Assembly: GCA_021413445.1 (NCBI GenBank)
Contig: JAIOQI010000043.1
Location: 1-64,000 of the forward strand
Length of the DNA: 64,000 bases
DNA from: Alphaproteobacteria bacterium
GTDB lineage: Bacteria; Pseudomonadota; Alphaproteobacteria; Micavibrionales; UBA2020
Direction of reading: 5' to 3'
A program made the position numbers and the translations under genes. Below are positions 24,400-64,000 of the stretch, piece after piece. How positions within the stretch are numbered: position 1 is the first letter of the stretch; every line of letters begins with the position of its first letter. The notes beneath the pieces were generated by a model. That model saw only the letters and a list, made by a program, of their open reading frames with translations. It was not told the origin of the DNA and did no database searches.

Positions 24400-24849
24400 A
24401 TGAATAAGCTTTATCGCCTTGCATACCTTATAATATTGTTATCATTGACTTTTTCCGCCGCCGAAGCCTCTCCCCGCCAGGAGGTGCTGCAGGGGCCGAT
24501 GACGGGGGAGGTCCTTAACGTCCTCGACGGGGACACCGTCAACGTCAAAATCCGCGTCTGGATCGGGCAGGAAATCGAGACCAGCCTGCGCATCGAAGGC
24601 ATCGACGCGCCGGAAATCAAGGGCAAGTGCGAAAAAGAACGCACGCTGGCCGAAGCGGCGCGGCAGGAAGTCGAGCGCCTGCTGAGCGACAACCTGATCC
24701 GGGTTTACAACGTCCGCCTGGAAAAATACGCCGGCCGCGTGATGGCGGAAGCGCAGACCACGCAAGGCATCGACATCGGCAAACACATGATCGAAAAAGG
24801 CCTGGCCCGCCCCTACCACGGGGAAAAGCGCCAGCCGTGGTGTTCTTAA
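24400..24849 (+). CDS. secreted thermonuclease-family (SNase) nuclease
   Basis: 149 residues from ATG 24400 (AAGGGG upstream). Residues 1-24 are a signal peptide ending SAAEA. The SNase fold is shown by VLNVLDGDTVNVKI, LRIEGIDAPEIKGKC (Arg and acidic catalytic positions) and YAGRVMAEAQT (second Arg). Such proteins cleave extracellular or periplasmic DNA and RNA. The tail PYHGEKRQPWCS is typical of the short bacterial form. The stop overlaps the convergent ankyrin gene by 4 bases. Confidence 0.9.
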   Translation: MNKLYRLAYLIILLSLTFSAAEASPRQEVLQGPMTGEVLNVLDGDTVNVKIRVWIGQEIETSLRIEGIDAPEIKGKCEKERTLAEAARQEVERLLSDNLIRVYNVRLEKYAGRVMAEAQTTQGIDIGKHMIEKGLARPYHGEKRQPWCS

Positions 24850-25490
24850 GGCTTGAAGCCTTTAAAACCGGTCCCTTTATGTTTTTCTTTCAGCGTCATC
24901 TGATGATAGGCCGCCTGCACGACGGCGAAATCAACGCCTAAAAATTCCTTGCCGTCCTCCGGCACTTTTTGCCACACCGCCTGCATCTCCTCCAGCCGCC
25001 CGCGCCAGAGGGCCGGTTTCAGGATGTGCTGCAGCTGCAGGCTCCCGACCGCCAGATCCAGAAGGTCGCGCCTGCCCTCGTGTTCCCTGAACTGCGACAA
25101 ATCCCGCAAAGTCAGGCGATCTCCCGCCGCGATCATCTTCTCCGTAACTTTACCCAGACATCCCATCTTGCAGGCGCGCACCAGCGCCACCTCGTCGGTG
25201 TCCCCATATTCCTGCCGCAGCCAGTTTTTAATATCAGCCTGCGCCGCCATATCTGCAAAAAACGCCGCTTTCTCCGCACCGATGGCTTCCTGCAAAAGAG
25301 CCGCCACTTCGTGATGGCCGTCGAACAGCGCCAGGTTCAAAGCGGCGCCGTTCCTGCCAAAAGGGTCGGCGCCTTGCTCCAACAGCGTTTTCACCGCCTC
25401 CAGATGCCCTGCGAAGGCAGCCGTGCTCAGGGCATCATCCATGTCCCTGTGAAACATGGCATTCTTTCTTGAGTTTTCGTCACCGGTCAT
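24846..25490 (-). CDS. ankyrin protein ending in a W-x-x-R-x-x-x-M module
   Basis: 214 residues, no signal peptide. Residues ~15-70 hold about two ankyrin repeats (LSTAAFAGHLEAVKTLLEQG; LNLALFDGHHEVAALLQEA). The C-terminal half is different: GDRLTLRDL, then LLDLAV and LWRGRLEEMQAVWQKVP with Trp162. That module occurs three times in the 503-residue protein at 59112. The final LKEKHKGTGFKGFKP tail also resembles that protein's C-terminus. The gene starts 11 bases inside the end of xth and may be co-transcribed with it. The function is unknown; a link to the AAA/VWA operon is inferred. Confidence 0.8.
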   Translation of the reverse strand: MTGDENSRKNAMFHRDMDDALSTAAFAGHLEAVKTLLEQGADPFGRNGAALNLALFDGHHEVAALLQEAIGAEKAAFFADMAAQADIKNWLRQEYGDTDEVALVRACKMGCLGKVTEKMIAAGDRLTLRDLSQFREHEGRRDLLDLAVGSLQLQHILKPALWRGRLEEMQAVWQKVPEDGKEFLGVDFAVVQAAYHQMTLKEKHKGTGFKGFKP

Positions 25491-55537: not shown

Positions 55538-56352
55538 GGGACCTCCGGTAAAGCTTGCGACAATTTCCCGCCGATGCGCAACGGCTCGATCCGCGTGCAC
55601 AGCCCCGTCCTGGGGTCGATGTCCGCCATCGTGCCGCAGAGGGTGACCGGCCCTTCCGCCGGGCGCAGCTTTTCGCCCGGAACCTTGCGCACAAAGCGGT
55701 TCACCGCCATCATCGTGTCCATGCCGATCACGCTGTCATAGCTGCCGCACATGCCGGCATCAGTCTGAAAGCCGGTGCCCTGCGGCAGGATCTGCGCGTC
55801 CGCCGTCGGCACATGGGTGTGCGTGCCGACCACCAGCGAAGAACGCCCGTCGCAATAATAACCAATCGCCTGCTTTTCGCTGGAAGCCTCGCCGTGCACG
55901 TCGATGATAATGGCATTGACATCCTTGCCGAGCTTGTATGCCTTGCACAGCTTGTCCATCGCCGCAAAGGGGTCGTCCAGCGCGTCCATGAACAGCCGGC
56001 ACATCACGTTGGTCACCAGGATTTTATGCCCCTGCGCGGTCTGGATGATGTAGGCGCCCTTGCCGGGCGCCGTTTCAGGGTAATTGATGGGCCGCAGCAG
56101 CTTCGGGTCGCTGCCGATGTAGGGGATGATCTCGCGCTGATCCCAGATGTGGTTGCCGGTGGTGATGCAATCGACCCCCGCTTTATAAAGATCGTTGCAG
56201 ATCTGCGCGGTGATGCCGAAGCCGCTCGCCGCGTTCTCGGCATTCACGATCACCGCGTCCAGCTTGTAATTTTTGCGCAGGTCGGGGAGCCGCGCGATGA
56301 TCTCATCCCGCGGATTGCGCCCCACCACATCGCCCAGAAAAAGAACTTTCAT
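55534..56352 (-). CDS. YmdB-family metallophosphoesterase (TIGR00282)
   Basis: 272 residues. MKVLFLGDVVGRNPRDEI, NAENAASGFGIT, TGNHIWDQREI, DVHGEASSEKQAIGYY and VVGTHTHVPTADAQIL are the metal-binding motifs in order. Characterised relatives hydrolyse 2',3'-cyclic nucleotides and affect RNA turnover. The gene is coupled by 4-base overlaps to the cyclo-ligase gene upstream and the DUF192 gene downstream. Confidence 0.93.
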   Translation of the reverse strand: MKVLFLGDVVGRNPRDEIIARLPDLRKNYKLDAVIVNAENAASGFGITAQICNDLYKAGVDCITTGNHIWDQREIIPYIGSDPKLLRPINYPETAPGKGAYIIQTAQGHKILVTNVMCRLFMDALDDPFAAMDKLCKAYKLGKDVNAIIIDVHGEASSEKQAIGYYCDGRSSLVVGTHTHVPTADAQILPQGTGFQTDAGMCGSYDSVIGMDTMMAVNRFVRKVPGEKLRPAEGPVTLCGTMADIDPRTGLCTRIEPLRIGGKLSQALPEVP

Positions 56353-56918
56353 TTATAAATATTCCCGTCGGTCACGATCATGTCCATCCTGATGTCGCCT
56401 TCCTCCACCGGCAGCCCGGCGCACAGTTGCATTTCATAGCCCAAGCCAATGGCCAGCAGGGGCCTGTTTTCCTTCAGCCGCGCAATCGTCGCGTCATAAA
56501 AACCGCCGCCATAGCCCAGCCGGTGACAATTTGCATCAAAAGCGGCCAGCGGCACAAGGACAATATCAGGAACCACCGCCGGTGCGGCCGCCGGCTCCAT
56601 GATGCTGTACTTGCCGGCCGTCATGGGCGTGGCCTCGTCCCAGAGGTGAAACTCCAGCGGCAGCGTCGCCCCCGCCACATGCGGCAGGGCGCAGGAACAG
56701 CCGCGCCGCAATAACTCGCGCAGGATCGGCATATCGTCCAGCTCGTTGCGGATCGGCCAATAGCCGGCGACCACCGCGCCGGCCGGCACCGGCACGTTCT
56801 TAAAAAAAAGCTCGCAGACTTTGGCGGCAGACTCTTTGCGCGCCGCGGGGGGAATCAGCGCCCGCCGCTCCAAGAACATCTGGCGCAAAACTGATTTTGA
56901 GGGGGGCTGGCCGGTCAC
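56349..56918 (-). CDS. 5-formyltetrahydrofolate cyclo-ligase
   Basis: 189 residues. The N-terminal Arg/Lys helix (LRQMFLERRALI), VAGYWPIRNELD, and the signature PLAAFDANCHRLGYGGGFYD identify the family (ygfA/fau). It converts 5-formyl-THF to 5,10-methenyl-THF. As in many proteobacteria it lies directly downstream of the 6S RNA gene, which may be processed from the same transcript. Confidence 0.94.
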   Translation of the reverse strand: MTGQPPSKSVLRQMFLERRALIPPAARKESAAKVCELFFKNVPVPAGAVVAGYWPIRNELDDMPILRELLRRGCSCALPHVAGATLPLEFHLWDEATPMTAGKYSIMEPAAAPAVVPDIVLVPLAAFDANCHRLGYGGGFYDATIARLKENRPLLAIGLGYEMQLCAGLPVEEGDIRMDMIVTDGNIYK

Positions 56919-56941: not shown

Positions 56942-57102
56942 GGAAGGCGCCACCTGAGCCGTGGACGGGGATTATCCGCTAGGCCCTGTAAAACAGGTGG
57001 GCACCATGTAATCAGACCACGGCCTGATCAGCGACAGCACCCAATCTAACGATCATCGGCCTCTGGGACAGTGCTGTCTCACGCACTCCGCAGCAACCTT
57101 CC
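56942..57102 (-). ncRNA. ssrS: 6S RNA
   Basis: About 161 bases on the minus strand between zapA and the cyclo-ligase gene, the standard location. GGAAGG at the 5' end pairs with CCTTCC at the 3' end; inner arms (GAGTGCGTGAGACAGCAC, CGTGGTCTGATTACATGGTG) fit a long hairpin with a central bubble that mimics open promoter DNA for RNA polymerase. A T-tract (A9 on the plus strand at ~56930-56938) follows. A promoter with correct spacing lies just upstream. The identification is by position and fold, not by a model search. Confidence 0.85.
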
Positions 57103-58717: not shown

Positions 58718-59110
58718 TTAAACCGGCTTGAACAGCTTGGCCAGGTTTTGCGCCTTGTTGACGGCGAAAAGGTCGCTCATGGCCTGGGTGCGCCCGTCTT
58801 GCGGGACAAGGGCGGACACGTCGCCTTCCTTCATCACCCGCAGGGAAATAGCGGCGTAAAAATCGACTAATTGGACAAGCAAGGCCGCGCGCGGCGCCTG
58901 AACCGCGTCATCATTTCCGCCCTTATCATGGGGAATATTTTCGAACAGGATCTCCGCGATTTTTTTCATCTCGCCGAGTTCCTGCTGTGTGGCGGCCTTG
59001 CGGAAGGCATCGACCAGGCCGGGATTGGCTTTTACTTTTCTTTCCACGGCTGCCTGGAATTCGCTGGCCAGATAGGCGATGGTGAAAATATCCGGTTTCT
59101 TCGGCGTCAT
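58718..59110 (-). CDS. hypothetical protein, last gene of the AAA/VWA operon
   Basis: 130 residues, soluble and helical. EFQAAVERKVKANPGLVDAF and ATQQELGEMKKIAEILFENI form long charged helices; the end NKAQNLAKLFKPV is basic. It starts 1 base after the 503-residue gene ends and is convergent with cysQ (2 bases apart). No family recognised. Operon position suggests it serves with the MoxR-like ATPase. Confidence 0.75.
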   Translation of the reverse strand: MTPKKPDIFTIAYLASEFQAAVERKVKANPGLVDAFRKAATQQELGEMKKIAEILFENIPHDKGGNDDAVQAPRAALLVQLVDFYAAISLRVMKEGDVSALVPQDGRTQAMSDLFAVNKAQNLAKLFKPV

Positions 59111-59111
59111 C

Positions 59112-60623
59112 TCATTGCCCCTTCGGCGGTTGCTTGGGCTGGATCTTGAAGCCGCCTTTTTTCTGCTTCAGCGTCGCCTGCTTGGCATTGACTTCCGCCT
59201 GGGCGAAATCCACCTGATGGCGCTGCGACACGCTGACCTGCGCCCACAGGGTTTTCATCTCGGAAACGCGGCCCGCCCAGAGATCCGGCGCGAAAGCCAG
59301 CGTCAGCTGGTTTTTTTCCGCCAGGATGCTCAGCAGCGTATTGCCGTGGCGGTCCTTGGAGAGGAAATCGCCCAGCGTGACAAGGTCGCCGCCCTGCTTG
59401 GAAATCGCGAGCACTTTGTCGAAATGGCCGAACTTCACGGCGCACATCAGGCAGGAATTCTCCATCTGGCCCGTGGGCGCGCGCAAATCGGCGATCGTCA
59501 GTTTCTCTCCCCGCTGGGAGAGCGCCGCCTGCACGGAATCAAATTTGTCCCATACCGCCTTGAGCCCCAGCGGCAGCACGGCCTTTTCCGCCGGAGTGGC
59601 TTCATTGAGGGGTTTCAGCAGGTCGGCCTTGCCCGTCACGGTCAGCGCCTGAAAGCGCGACGCATAGGTCAGGCTTTCCGCTTCGGCATAGGCGTTGTCG
59701 AAATCGCGCGTCGTCATGGAGGCGGTTTTCCAGCCGTCGAGGACATGCGACCACAGGGTCAGCATGTCCGGCAGGCGATCGACCCAATGGGCGGCCGTGA
59801 AAACCTTGGCGAGCGCCCCGTGCTCTGCGGCGCGCGCGAGGATATTCTTGGCATAGGAAACCTGCTTGATGAAGTCCACGATCTCAAAACGCTCGCCATG
59901 GTCCTTGAGGGTCTTGACCACCGCGTCATATTTGCCCCACGCCGAGCTGCCGTCGAAAACGGTGTCGCCGGAACCGTCCATCATCAGGACGTATTCCTTG
60001 CGCAGATAATCGCCGGCCAGCGCCAGCTTGGCCGTAAACTCGTCGAATTCGCCGCGCCACGAGAAGGCCTGGCGGACGTCGTAGGGCGTCAGGCGCGCCT
60101 TGGCCAGGCTGTCCTCGGGGGTGGTCTTGCCTTCCGCCGCGAACAGCTTGCGTTTCAGGCTGGCGGGAGTCAGGCCCTGGGACTTGAAAATATCCTTGCG
60201 GTTGGGCACCGGCACCTTGTACCACAGGCGCTCCATCTCCTCGTAACGGCCCTGCCAGACTTCAAAAGTGAACACGTTGCCGAGGCCCTTGCATTCCACG
60301 GCGCTGTCGAGAAGCGTCTTGTTCGGGTCTTTGCCCAGCGGCTTCATGAAGTCGTCATAGCTGAAGGTGTCGCCGTTGGCCTGCACGATCTTGGCGATCT
60401 TCTCAAAGTTTTTCCAGGCGCCTTCGCTGTCGATGATGAACTTGCCCTCGTCGTCCGGCGCCAGGAAATCCGCCTTGGTCAGCGTTTGCAGCTGCTGCGA
60501 CATCGCTTCCATCGTCTTCGCCAGGTTGTCGCCGGAAAAGGCGCGCTGGCGGTACTTCTCGGCTTCCGGGTGCTCGCAGAGGGAGGCGATGATCGCCTGT
60601 TTGATGTACTTGCCGCTGCTCAT
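59112..60623 (-). CDS. triplicated W-x-x-R-x-x-x-M helical-repeat protein
   Basis: 503 residues, cytosolic. Three units of ~160 residues each end in the motif WQGRYEEMERLWYKVP (Trp123), WVDRLPDMLTLWSHVL (Trp280) and WAGRVSEMKTLWAQVS (Trp449). Before each motif lies a segment of the type W(K/G)xxxxxVxxxLxxxGxxF/L(S/E/T)xxDF/L, then an ankyrin-like helix pair. The final GGFKIQPKQPPKGQ is basic and disordered. The same module ends the ankyrin protein at 24846. The gene overlaps the 105-residue gene by 4 bases. I know no named family for this repeat. A scaffold or substrate adaptor for the ATPase is my inference. Confidence 0.8.
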   Translation of the reverse strand: MSSGKYIKQAIIASLCEHPEAEKYRQRAFSGDNLAKTMEAMSQQLQTLTKADFLAPDDEGKFIIDSEGAWKNFEKIAKIVQANGDTFSYDDFMKPLGKDPNKTLLDSAVECKGLGNVFTFEVWQGRYEEMERLWYKVPVPNRKDIFKSQGLTPASLKRKLFAAEGKTTPEDSLAKARLTPYDVRQAFSWRGEFDEFTAKLALAGDYLRKEYVLMMDGSGDTVFDGSSAWGKYDAVVKTLKDHGERFEIVDFIKQVSYAKNILARAAEHGALAKVFTAAHWVDRLPDMLTLWSHVLDGWKTASMTTRDFDNAYAEAESLTYASRFQALTVTGKADLLKPLNEATPAEKAVLPLGLKAVWDKFDSVQAALSQRGEKLTIADLRAPTGQMENSCLMCAVKFGHFDKVLAISKQGGDLVTLGDFLSKDRHGNTLLSILAEKNQLTLAFAPDLWAGRVSEMKTLWAQVSVSQRHQVDFAQAEVNAKQATLKQKKGGFKIQPKQPPKGQ

Positions 60624-60937
60624 GATGATTTCTTTACCTCTTTAAAAAGCGTCTTGGTGATCGCATTTCTCTGGCACAGCTTTTCAATATCGCCCTCGGT
60701 CATCGCGGCGTCAAGCGGGATGAAAATGACCTTGTTTTCCGGATTGCGCAGGGCGGCTTCCAGCGTCAGCAGGGTATCGGCCACGGCCACCCCCTTGTCT
60801 TTGGAGATGATGGCGCTTTCCCACCCCTGCTCGACCGTGAACAGCCGGCTGCCGTGGGGCAAAAATTTGCACCCACGCTCCATCGCGTTCTGGTGCGCGA
60901 CTTCCACGGCAACCTTGTTCATGAGCTCAGATGACAT
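60620..60937 (-). CDS. small hypothetical protein of the AAA/VWA operon
   Basis: 105 residues, soluble, alpha/beta. HGSRLFTVEQGWESAIISKD, then KVIFIPLDAAMTEGDIEKLC. It begins 42 bases after the ATPase gene and its stop overlaps the start of the repeat-protein gene (ATGA). Family not recognised. Confidence 0.75.
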   Translation of the reverse strand: MSSELMNKVAVEVAHQNAMERGCKFLPHGSRLFTVEQGWESAIISKDKGVAVADTLLTLEAALRNPENKVIFIPLDAAMTEGDIEKLCQRNAITKTLFKEVKKSS

Positions 60938-60979
60938 GACGCCCCCTTTTCAACCGGGATGACCCCCGGCAAGAACTCC

Positions 60980-63625
60980 TTACATGGCCTTCTTGCTGGC
61001 CTTGATGAGATACTTGCCGTACATCATATCAATATTGCCATCGACCAGCAACTCCGCCAGTTGGGGGTTTTTGCCCTTCAGGTGCTCCGCATCGACGTCG
61101 TTCCGGTACTTGAAGGCTTCCGCCAGGCGGCCCCTCACCGATTCCGGCATGTTGCGCGTCAGGTCGTTCAGCGCCGCCTCGACCTTGCCGATCGCGTTCG
61201 GGTCGTTGCGATCGACATGGGTGATGCCCGCTTCACGGAAGGCGGCCAGCAGCTTGGACGGCACTTTCTCGCCCACGATCAGGGTTTTGCCGCGCGCTTC
61301 GTTGCGGACGATATGGATCGAAACGTCGCAGGGCGCGCCGCTGGCATCGTTGAACAGCACGCGCAGCGTGGTGGTCGCCAGCTTCTGGGCCGAACGGTTC
61401 TCAGCGATGTGCAGGGCTTCGTCAAGATCAGCAGTAGCACCCTTGGCCCCGGCATCCGGCGTGTTCTGGTTGGCCGGAGCGGTGTTCTGGTCTTCCGTCA
61501 GCGGGCGGATGTTGGCGTCCCAGATCGCGGCGATATTCTTGCCGCTGATCGTCGGCAACGCCAGCGACGCCATGAAATCATCATGATGCACCAGGTCGTC
61601 GTAGCTGAGGTCCAGCTCCTTCTTCGCCAGGGTATAGGCCGCCACGTCCTCGATCTTCGCACCCGTCAGAGGCGACGCCCCCAGGGTTTCGTGGTCGCGG
61701 TTGACGATGAAGAGTTCCTTGGTCTCGGCGGTATTTTTCTGGCCGACTTTTTCCAGGGCATCATGCACCTTTTTCATGGTGACGATCTGGTCGTCTTCCG
61801 CCGTGATCTCGGGGGAGATCTGGCGGATATAGTCGCAGAACACCTTGCGGGCGAGCTGCGCCTGCTTGCCAAGATCGCGGTCGGCGAAAGAGCTGATGTT
61901 CAGCGCCTCCTCGACCGATTTCTGGCCGCTGTGCGCGCCTTCCAGCAGGTGCACGTCGTGCAGGCCGAACTCGTCCATCGCCTTGCTCAGCTTGGCGTAG
62001 AGCTTTTCCTTGCCGATGGCGGCGGATTTCTCATAGACCATGCGCTCCAGGAACTCAACCAGGCGGGTGCCGAAGAAGAGCGCCGGATTTTCGTCATCCT
62101 GCTCGCTCAGCACCGGCTGCTTCATGAAATCCTTGAAGTTGATGAACGCCGGCGCCTCGGCCGGCTCCATGCGCGGGCGGATGGCGGCAGCCTCTTCGAG
62201 GTGCTGCTTGATCTTGCGGAAATCGACGCCTTCTTTCTTGGAATACTCTTCGTCCACTTCCTCGACCAGGTCGGCATGGCCCTGCATAATCTTTTCGGCA
62301 TCGGTCAGGGTCGCCCACTTGTCGTAGAACTGGGCGAGCTTCTCGGACGCGCTCACCACGTTCTTCCAGTTCATCAGCAACGCTTCCTGTAGCGCCGGAA
62401 TAGCGACGCCTTCGATCTGGGCTTTTTCCTTGCGGAGCGCCATCAGCCACGCGCCGAAGGCATCCGGGTCCTTGTTGGCCTGGTCCTTGAACACGGTGTA
62501 GAGCGTCGATACCGGCAAACCCACCATCATCTGGCAGATGCGGTGCTGCCAGTCGATCACATCCGGATCGGGCAGGGTTTGCGGCGAAAGGCGGGAATAA
62601 ACCGACTTGTTCAGGCTGCGGGTGGTGACGCCGTCTTCGGTCTTGTTGCCGGTCAGGGTGACGAAGAAGCCGATGCCCATGTCTTCGCGCTTGAAGGTGA
62701 AGGAGCTGGGGCCCGACGTCGTGTCCTTGTTCTTGAGCGGGTTTTCAACGGTGCACTGGTCGATTTCGCCGTTGAGGAACTGCCAGACGGTCTGCAACGC
62801 GTTGTCGGAGCCTTCGCGCGACTTGTTGTACTCGTCGAGCACGCCTTCGCGGTTCTCCTTGAACCAGCGGATCAGCGGGCCGTACTGGGAATTCATGCCC
62901 AGCGCGTTGCCGCCGGCATTGTCGAGGCCTTCGATATGGCTGACTTCCTTCATGATCTTGTAGGCCGCATCGACTTCCTCGGGCTTGGCCTTACCCTTGA
63001 AGTAATTCCAGTCGATGGACTTCACTTCATCTTTTTCAATGGAGACGCCCGGCAGGGATTTCAGTTTCGCCAGGGACAGGGCCTGCAGCGTGCCGGCTTT
63101 CAGGCGCTTGTCGATCGCGGAGGGCAGAGCGTCGCCGGAGCCGAAATCGAGGACCATTTCGAACAGCAGTTCGTTCATGTTCTTGCCGCCGCAGTCGAAT
63201 ACTTCGACCGACTTCTTGCTGCGCAGCCGGCCTTGCAGGGCGCCCATGAAGGACTTGCCGTGGCCGGGGTTGCCGATCAGCATCTGGGTGCGGTTTTTGC
63301 TTTCCGGCTTGCGTCTTTCCAGGCCGTCAAAGAACAGCTGCAGCATCGAAGGCACAGGCATGTCGCAATAAGCCAGCGCCATAACCTCCTGATAGGAGCG
63401 TTCGGTATAAATTTTCATCGGACGGGCGTCGCTGGCGATGACGGACAGGACCTGCTCCAGCTCCGAGTTGCCCTTGTACTCGACGCGCTGCGAGCCCCAC
63501 ATCGGGAAAGGGCGGTCGGCGGTGCCGAGCGGCTTTTCCAGCTGCGCCAGAATCTCAGGGGTCAAATCCTTGATTTTGGTGGCGAGGAGGTCTGTAGCGG
63601 GGAGGTTTTTTGCGTCTTTTTTCAT
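60980..63625 (-). CDS. MoxR-like AAA+ ATPase with long C-terminal extension
   Basis: 881 residues. Walker A is IGNPGHGKSF (residues 117-126). Walker B is GVLDEYNKSREGSDNALQTV (D264, E265), strongly MoxR-like (DEINRAxxxxQxxL), followed by FLNGEIDQCTV in place of the MEExxVT element. Sensor 1 is FFVTLTGNKTEDG (N327) and a likely arginine finger is in SVYSRLSPQTLPDPD. The core ends near residue 390; the remaining ~490 residues are helical and unique, with an Ala/Thr/Asn-rich linker (NTAPANQNTPDAGAKG) before a C-terminal alpha/beta domain. The VWA gene upstream overlaps it by 4 bases. MoxR/VWA pairs act as chaperone or metal-insertion machines; the client here is unknown. Confidence 0.88.
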   Translation of the reverse strand: MKKDAKNLPATDLLATKIKDLTPEILAQLEKPLGTADRPFPMWGSQRVEYKGNSELEQVLSVIASDARPMKIYTERSYQEVMALAYCDMPVPSMLQLFFDGLERRKPESKNRTQMLIGNPGHGKSFMGALQGRLRSKKSVEVFDCGGKNMNELLFEMVLDFGSGDALPSAIDKRLKAGTLQALSLAKLKSLPGVSIEKDEVKSIDWNYFKGKAKPEEVDAAYKIMKEVSHIEGLDNAGGNALGMNSQYGPLIRWFKENREGVLDEYNKSREGSDNALQTVWQFLNGEIDQCTVENPLKNKDTTSGPSSFTFKREDMGIGFFVTLTGNKTEDGVTTRSLNKSVYSRLSPQTLPDPDVIDWQHRICQMMVGLPVSTLYTVFKDQANKDPDAFGAWLMALRKEKAQIEGVAIPALQEALLMNWKNVVSASEKLAQFYDKWATLTDAEKIMQGHADLVEEVDEEYSKKEGVDFRKIKQHLEEAAAIRPRMEPAEAPAFINFKDFMKQPVLSEQDDENPALFFGTRLVEFLERMVYEKSAAIGKEKLYAKLSKAMDEFGLHDVHLLEGAHSGQKSVEEALNISSFADRDLGKQAQLARKVFCDYIRQISPEITAEDDQIVTMKKVHDALEKVGQKNTAETKELFIVNRDHETLGASPLTGAKIEDVAAYTLAKKELDLSYDDLVHHDDFMASLALPTISGKNIAAIWDANIRPLTEDQNTAPANQNTPDAGAKGATADLDEALHIAENRSAQKLATTTLRVLFNDASGAPCDVSIHIVRNEARGKTLIVGEKVPSKLLAAFREAGITHVDRNDPNAIGKVEAALNDLTRNMPESVRGRLAEAFKYRNDVDAEHLKGKNPQLAELLVDGNIDMMYGKYLIKASKKAM

Positions 63626-64000
63626 CGTTTTTTATCCATCTTGTTATGAGCTTTTTTCATGGCCCGACGTTTCTGGGTATTTGGAACGGCGATAAAACTA
63701 CCGCATTTCCTGATTTTATCGAGCAGCAGCCCGACGATCGCCATTGGCACTTTGTTCGGATCGCTCCCGAGAACGACGCCCATTTCCTGGGACGGTTTCC
63801 GCGACTTCATGCTGTTGGCCATTTTTTCCATCGGCGTGCCCCGGTTCGCGGTGATGATCGCGACATCGAACGTCACCTTGTCGGAGTACTCGAACATGGT
63901 ATGCATCTTTTCCTTGGCTTCGGAGACATCGAACATGTCGCCGTCGGAAATGATCAGTACGTGCGTGAACCCGCTGAGGGTCCCGCTCTTGCCCCGCTGT
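63622..64000 (-). CDS. VWA-domain protein, C-terminal part (cut by window edge)
   Basis: The frame is open to the window edge, so the start lies outside; the visible part is about 125 residues. FTHVLIISDGDMFDVSEAKE fits the central strand and DG element of a von Willebrand A domain, followed by KVTFDVAIITANRGTPMEKM and VPMAIVGLLLDKIRKCGSFI as the last strands and helix. A basic tail (RRAMKKAHNKMDKKR) follows. The metal-ion site DxSxS would be upstream, not visible. It overlaps the ATPase gene by 4 bases, the usual arrangement for CbbQ/O, NorQ/D and CoxD/E-type pairs. Confidence 0.8.
   Translation of the reverse strand, partial: QRGKSGTLSGFTHVLIISDGDMFDVSEAKEKMHTMFEYSDKVTFDVAIITANRGTPMEKMANSMKSRKPSQEMGVVLGSDPNKVPMAIVGLLLDKIRKCGSFIAVPNTQKRRAMKKAHNKMDKKR

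Follow-up and report, generated by a model that had tools for sequence, protein, structure and literature searches.

Gene content of the locus

The window, that is, the whole stretch of DNA analysed here, covers positions 1-64000 on a contig 84,962 bases long, from a draft genome of 2.1 Mb that is 87% complete; close relatives are MAGs named as Micavibrio sp., Rhodospirillales or Alphaproteobacteria bacterium. An initial annotation of its end, made from the sequence alone, had proposed an operon of five minus-strand genes, all of which were found at the coordinates given for them (Table 1). The spacing was also as described, with 4-base overlaps between the VWA and ATPase genes and between p105 and p503, a gap of 42 bases between the ATPase gene and p105, and a gap of 1 base between p503 and p130. 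The gene order along the operon is vWA, MoxR ATPase, p105 and repeat protein. Following the truncated VWA gene past position 64000 yielded a complete gene, and dksA lies 218 bases upstream of it, on the contig beyond the window edge, with suhB downstream of the operon on the opposite strand. Two plus-strand open reading frames of 627 and 477 amino acids that face p503 and the ATPase gene were dismissed as antisense by-products, the minus-strand frames being the conserved ones. One proposed partner fell away: the 130-residue protein p130 is an orphan with no match in 15 relatives and occurs in this genome only.

Table 1. Features of the operon and of a module-bearing gene elsewhere in the window
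Feature	Position	Strand	Remarks
VWA gene, 3' part	63622..64000	-	full gene 63622-66735 of contig, 1037 aa
ATPase, 881-aa MoxR-type AAA+, ~490-residue C-terminal extension	60980..63625	-	
Walker A of ATPase, GNPGHGKS, residues 118-125	63251..63274	-	G118/G123/K124 invariant, 27 homologues
Walker B of ATPase, VLDEYNK	62822..62842	-	D264/E265 invariant, 27 homologues
ATPase sensor 1 (TGN, N327) to conserved arginine R345	62591..62653	-	both invariant, 27 homologues
ATPase C-terminal domain, ~residues 640-870	61016..61708	-	stand-alone versions in relatives
p105, small alpha/beta protein, third core gene	60620..60937	-	
p503, ankyrin-like, three ~100-residue repeats	59112..60623	-	
p503 C-terminal module, ~96 residues	59169..59453	-	common to many ankyrin proteins
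214-aa ankyrin protein with p503-type module (24891-25184)	24846..25490	-	Ank_2 3.7e-6; outside the interval first annotated
p130, orphan ORF	58718-59110	-	outside conserved system

The AAA+ ATPase and its vWA partner

The ATPase carries every MoxR-type motif first read from the sequence (Walker A as GNPGHGKS, Walker B as LDEYN and sensor 1 as TGN), and G118, G123, K124, D264, E265, N327 and R345 are unchanged in all 27 homologues compared. In Pfam, the window ATPase matched no AAA family, and AAA_5 was touched by just 3 of the 27 relatives (best 3.3e-4); despite all its MoxR-type motifs, the window protein is too divergent for Pfam. A Barstar-like match and other weak matches of the ATPase profile were put down to chance. 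The C-terminal domain also exists alone in relatives, as proteins of 216-312 amino acids.

The VWA protein consists of an N-terminal domain, a linker of ~250 residues in which Asp, Gly, Lys and Glu abound, and, at the C terminus, a VWA domain (VWA_2, 2.3e-6) whose MIDAS is intact and conserved in homologues (DGSGS at residue 820, followed by D931). The vWA domain reaches about residue 980-1000 of 1037, and no further domain was found after it. At the N terminus, 18 of 38 homologues carry HExxH, and a glutamate ~60 residues past the motif position is kept in all 38 (E282 in the window copy). In the window protein this zinc motif is degenerate (REIGH, residues 216-220), its first His being replaced by Arg in the window's clade, and the zincin-like N-terminal domain is likely a pseudo-protease. 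On the ATPase tree, the HExxH trait requires at least four changes.

An N-terminal domain joined by an acidic linker to a VWA domain resembles the layout of CobT, and a CobD/CbiB-like gene (PF03186, 5.4e-26) lies between dksA and the VWA gene in most relatives, both of which would fit a metal-insertion machine of the cobaltochelatase, NorQD or CbbQO type. We consider such a role very improbable: the window's operon lacks the upstream CbiB-like gene, no CobN (PF02514) was found in the window's genome (87% complete) by a search whose controls were positive, and Rubisco, NO reductase and CO dehydrogenase were not noticed beside the operons inspected.

A conserved core with a changing fourth gene

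The VWA gene lies directly upstream of the ATPase gene in 46 of 51 loci; in the other five, the ATPase is at or near a contig end or fragmented. Among the 45 loci with at least 1.5 kb of sequence beyond the ATPase, p105 follows it in 41, and in 31 the fourth gene encodes an ankyrin or LRR protein that ends in the same module as p503. VWA, AAA+ ATPase and p105 are the conserved core. The 105- and 503-residue proteins are real partners, as first proposed. Across the order, p105 and the ATPase are found together in 30 genomes and each alone in 3 (Fisher p 5e-24). In the p105-only genomes (G068, G093 and G094), p105 adjoins a UbiB-like gene that flanks the full operons of relatives, and the lone copy reads as an operon remnant.

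The predicted structure of p105 is a small alpha/beta protein (pLDDT 87) with no significant match among PDB structures. Neither p105 nor p503 matched an entry in Pfam, NCBIfam or PADLOC. The best BFVD match of p105 was to Aeromonas phage phiAS5 (E 4.7e-3). This fold link to large-phage proteins was rejected as support, since a motif scan of phiAS5 found no MoxR/vWA pair.

The description of p503 as a repeat protein was borne out: in profile comparisons its three ~100-residue repeats match one another with probabilities of 99.3-99.7%. Against Pfam ankyrin the protein stays below cut-off, with a best ankyrin match of 0.0016 in a profile search. Its AF2 model is helical (pLDDT 86.7), and the top Foldseek matches are ankyrin domains, at a level that is not significant (E 0.018, low TM). 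The C-terminal module of p503 is common to proteins with clear ankyrin repeats.

The ATPase tree splits by the fourth gene into ankyrin, LRR+ankyrin, none and one diversity-generating-retroelement (DGR) target. In the LRR+ankyrin clade, the fourth protein has LRRs and the same C-terminal module as p503; these LRR-type proteins thus keep the C-terminal end and differ in the recognition part. In the type II clade the operon has no fourth gene. At locus L095, the gene directly after the ATPase is the DGR target, with a 153-nt VR/TR in which 12 of 13 differences fall at template adenines, and with bAvd (3.9e-17) and a reverse transcriptase (3.2e-16). Four genus-mates have lost p503 and keep the core, and in G028 p503 is present and p105 absent. 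Together with type II, these genomes indicate that neither p105 nor p503 is strictly required.

A shared C-terminal module on scattered ankyrin proteins

Searches with p503 revealed that its last ~96 residues recur on many other proteins. A genome can have as many as ~15 ankyrin proteins that end in this module. They are scattered and often in tandem, lie mostly in clusters of 2-6 genes, and are syntenic orthologues between species; clear Pfam ankyrin repeats were detected in 33 of 40. The window's genome has two module proteins on another contig and one inside the window (Table 1). The window alone makes the system look smaller than it is, as the p503 module is borne by many further ankyrin proteins.

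At the genome level, co-occurrence with the ATPase is strong both for p105 and for the module: module carriers comprise 29 of the 33 genomes of the order with the ATPase and 0 of the 109 without (p 3e-26), an association that is inflated by shared descent, most module genomes lying in two families. The class sample adds 4 module genomes, 2 of them with the ATPase. The module occurs without a detected ATPase in two sampled genomes (G311, 69% complete, and G330), so the link is strong, not absolute. In three genus-mates (G002, G003 and G005) the core is present and both p503 and the module are missing, a pattern suggesting that the module proteins need p503 or that p503 needs them.

The position of the module clusters brings in a further hypothesis, in which the complex would chaperone or load the ankyrin effectors of a type IVB secretion system resembling Dot/Icm, with the module as their recognition tag. 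An IcmB/DotO-like gene is present in 34 of 35 relatives, with IcmJ/DotN (NF038221, 4.9e-26) and a gene resembling IcmD beside it. The distance from the IcmB/DotO-like gene to the module clusters is 98-340 bases in six genomes (G008, G010, G011, G013, G015 and G016), with clusters 1.9 kb away in G017 and 4.7 kb away in G009, and in G028 the MoxR operon itself is 1.7 kb distant, although two unrelated genes stand between. However, the clusters that were inspected run convergently with icmB, a single ancestral event probably accounts for the arrangement, and secretion genes occur in many genomes without a MoxR system. The window shows no such link, and icmB was not found in its genome (87% complete). 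We therefore regard a role in secretion as quite unlikely.

Distribution, evolution and a possible role in conflict

Relatives of the ATPase were detected in 33 of the order's 142 genomes, and a class sample of 385 genomes added 4 more; in a phylum-wide draw of 398 genomes, the ATPase was detected in the window's own genome only. Neither viral contigs nor phage records yielded a relative, and a phage origin was rejected. The type I operon keeps to a single chromosomal location, next to dksA and suhB, and has descended vertically within the family, following taxonomy. Conservation is.71 for VWA,.70 for the ATPase,.62 for p105 and.61 for p503, compared with.59 for the housekeeping neighbour suhB. 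The operon thus evolves no faster than suhB, and this counts against a defence system of the classic arms-race type.

These observations bear on another hypothesis, that of a MoxR-vWA-centred conflict (immune) system similar to the VMAP/iSTAND ternary systems, in which the repeat proteins sense invaders and an effector is set free once a threshold imposed by the MoxR-vWA pair is passed. Kaur et al. (2020) described ternary MoxR-vWA systems whose third component varies and whose effectors are diversified by DGRs (PMC7159879). The DGR target right after the ATPase in L095, the alternation of the fourth component between ankyrin, LRR+ankyrin and DGR target, and the presence of up to several paralogous systems in one genome would all fit such a role. 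In contrast, the core proteins carry no effector domain and the VWA domain is C-terminal, PADLOC gave no match, and the module ankyrin proteins are syntenic between species; with vertical descent at one fixed site and conservation equal to or above that of suhB, an immune role is, in our judgement, unlikely.

Proposed mechanism

The function of the AAA+/VWA machine is inferred, with the repeat protein as a putative client or adaptor. The evidence supports a so far undescribed MoxR-vWA family, carried by a set of uncultured bacteria resembling Micavibrio: its neighbours are dksA and suhB, it is no routine NorQ/CbbQ or RavA beside a known client, and no description of the combination of MoxR/vWA, p105 and a module-bearing ankyrin protein was found in the open-licence literature. 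That the machine remodels repeat proteins, as clients or adaptors, through a shared C-terminal module has, in our view, about an even chance of being correct. The occurrence of the module on many ankyrin proteins suggests that a single machine works with a whole family of recognition proteins that can replace one another. A wider proposal is more tentative, and we rate it as possible rather than probable: a single AAA+/vWA machine would act with interchangeable ankyrin, LRR or DGR-diversified proteins by way of the common module, its protease domain having repeatedly become a pseudo-enzyme.

MoxR-vWA pairs capture a peptide or protein and remodel it with ATP, as summarised in PMC7159879. By analogy with MoxR proteins, the ATPase would form a hexameric ring on which the VWA protein docks through its MIDAS, and ATP hydrolysis could be coupled via the acidic linker to the N-terminal (pseudo-)zincin domain and p105. 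The assembly may then grip the C-terminal module of the repeat protein and remodel, load or release that protein, with the target chosen by the variable ankyrin/LRR surface. The operon-encoded p503 would be the resident client, and the scattered module proteins would compete with it for one dock. Lineages that retain HExxH may use the N-terminal domain to cleave the client, whereas the domain encoded in the window's genome would only bind. Read most simply, the pattern suggests a machine that docks the module and whose action falls on, or passes through, anything held by the repeats.

For most MoxR-vWA pairs a single client is known, or none at all, and client choice is an open question. A constant module on a family of ankyrin proteins would provide a direct, testable handle on that choice. 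Members of the family also differ in whether the recognition part is ankyrin, LRR or a hypervariable DGR protein, and the protease motif has been lost repeatedly; in this way the family links housekeeping-like chaperone pairs to conflict-type ternary systems. If the wider proposal is correct, the machine would represent a bacterial counterpart of adaptor-exchange machines.

Comparison with known systems

RavA-ViaA, NorQD, CbbQO, CoxDE and magnesium/cobalt chelatase share with this system the MoxR-type Walker A, LDExN, sensor 1 and arginine, as well as adjacent genes, a vWA domain with MIDAS and a long charged linker before it. The ATPase here differs in being roughly three times as large as is usual, ~490 of its residues forming the C-terminal extension, and the operon adds a constant third gene, p105, and an ankyrin/LRR fourth gene whose module is found on many other proteins. 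Unlike RavA-ViaA, NorQD and CbbQO, the operon has dksA and suhB beside it instead of a known client gene.

Like the VMAP, iSTAND, FtsH, beta-propeller, iSTAND2 and TERNS3 ternary systems (PMC7159879, PMC8195603), the operon combines MoxR-vWA with a constant third component and a variable recognition part, and occasionally a DGR target. The order is VMAP-MoxR-vWA there and vWA-MoxR-p105-repeat here; effector domains do not follow the vWA domain, and no VMAP-C or STAND match was found, p105 and p503 having been compared with Pfam, NCBIfam and PADLOC. Ternary systems evolve fast, whereas this operon does not, and ankyrin is not mentioned by Kaur et al. (PMC7159879). In jumbo phages, a MoxR ATPase has been reported next to a vWA protein that carries a metallopeptidase at its N terminus (PMC7824862), and the N-terminal HExxH domain is shared with homologues of the VWA protein described here. 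Against phage records, however, there was no credible sequence match, the HExxH is degenerate in the window copy, and the operon has p105 and repeat genes in addition. A parallel to the module itself is offered by the effector-associated domain (EAD) adaptors of bacterial conflict systems, in which a small constant module on many differing proteins is likewise tied to a core machine; here, the module is ankyrin-like and sits at the C terminus, with ankyrin/LRR recognition proteins as its partners in place of enzymatic effectors.

Flanking genes and dispersed parts of the MoxR-vWA operon

In most relatives the VWA gene is preceded by dksA and a CobD/CbiB-like gene, in that arrangement; in the window's genome, the CobD/CbiB-like gene is absent from the equivalent dksA-VWA interval. 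In L046 and L100 the ankyrin-like repeat gene p503 is followed by genes for putative metallopeptidases, one with DUF6782 in the former and one with an HExxH motif in the latter. Directly 3' of a MoxR-vWA pair of the window's family lies, in one relative, a diversity-generating retroelement.

Some parts of the core also occur separately. ATPase and VWA genes are absent where p105, the third core gene, is retained singly, and the ATPase C-terminal domain forms stand-alone proteins (at most three per genome), which are possibly decoys or regulators.

Loci observed besides the operon (L, loci in relatives or the window's own genome).
Feature	Location	Strand	Remarks
CobD/CbiB-like membrane protein gene	L033:1694-2665, L050:4641-5666 and equivalents
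Putative metallopeptidase genes	L046:9067-11479, L100:12880-14031		3' of p503
Stand-alone ATPase C-terminal-domain proteins	L066:3495-4364, L068:7203-8024, L102-L109		216-312 aa
Diversity-generating retroelement	L095:10813-13549 (G092 C55)		target gene, bAvd, template repeat, reverse transcriptase
p105 alone	L112:8129-8578, L113:9469-9870, L114:8808-9158		adjoins UbiB/ABC1-like gene
Divergent Dot/Icm-like type IVB secretion locus	L128:3-4369, L120:9272-13863, L052:16495-19500
Additional ankyrin-like genes, window's own genome	L116:1947-5679, contig C23
6S RNA	window 56943-57099	-
5-Formyltetrahydrofolate cyclo-ligase-like gene	window 56349-56918	-	after 6S RNA

Ankyrin genes and the Dot/Icm-like type IVB secretion locus

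A divergent Dot/Icm-like locus (IcmB/DotO-like, IcmJ/DotN-like and IcmD-like genes), present in nearly all tested genomes of the order, often has clusters of ankyrin genes beside it. The additional ankyrin-like genes in the window's own genome comprise two with the C-terminal module of p503 and at least three without it.

Within the window, 6S RNA followed by the cyclo-ligase-like gene reproduces the usual ssrS-ygfA order.
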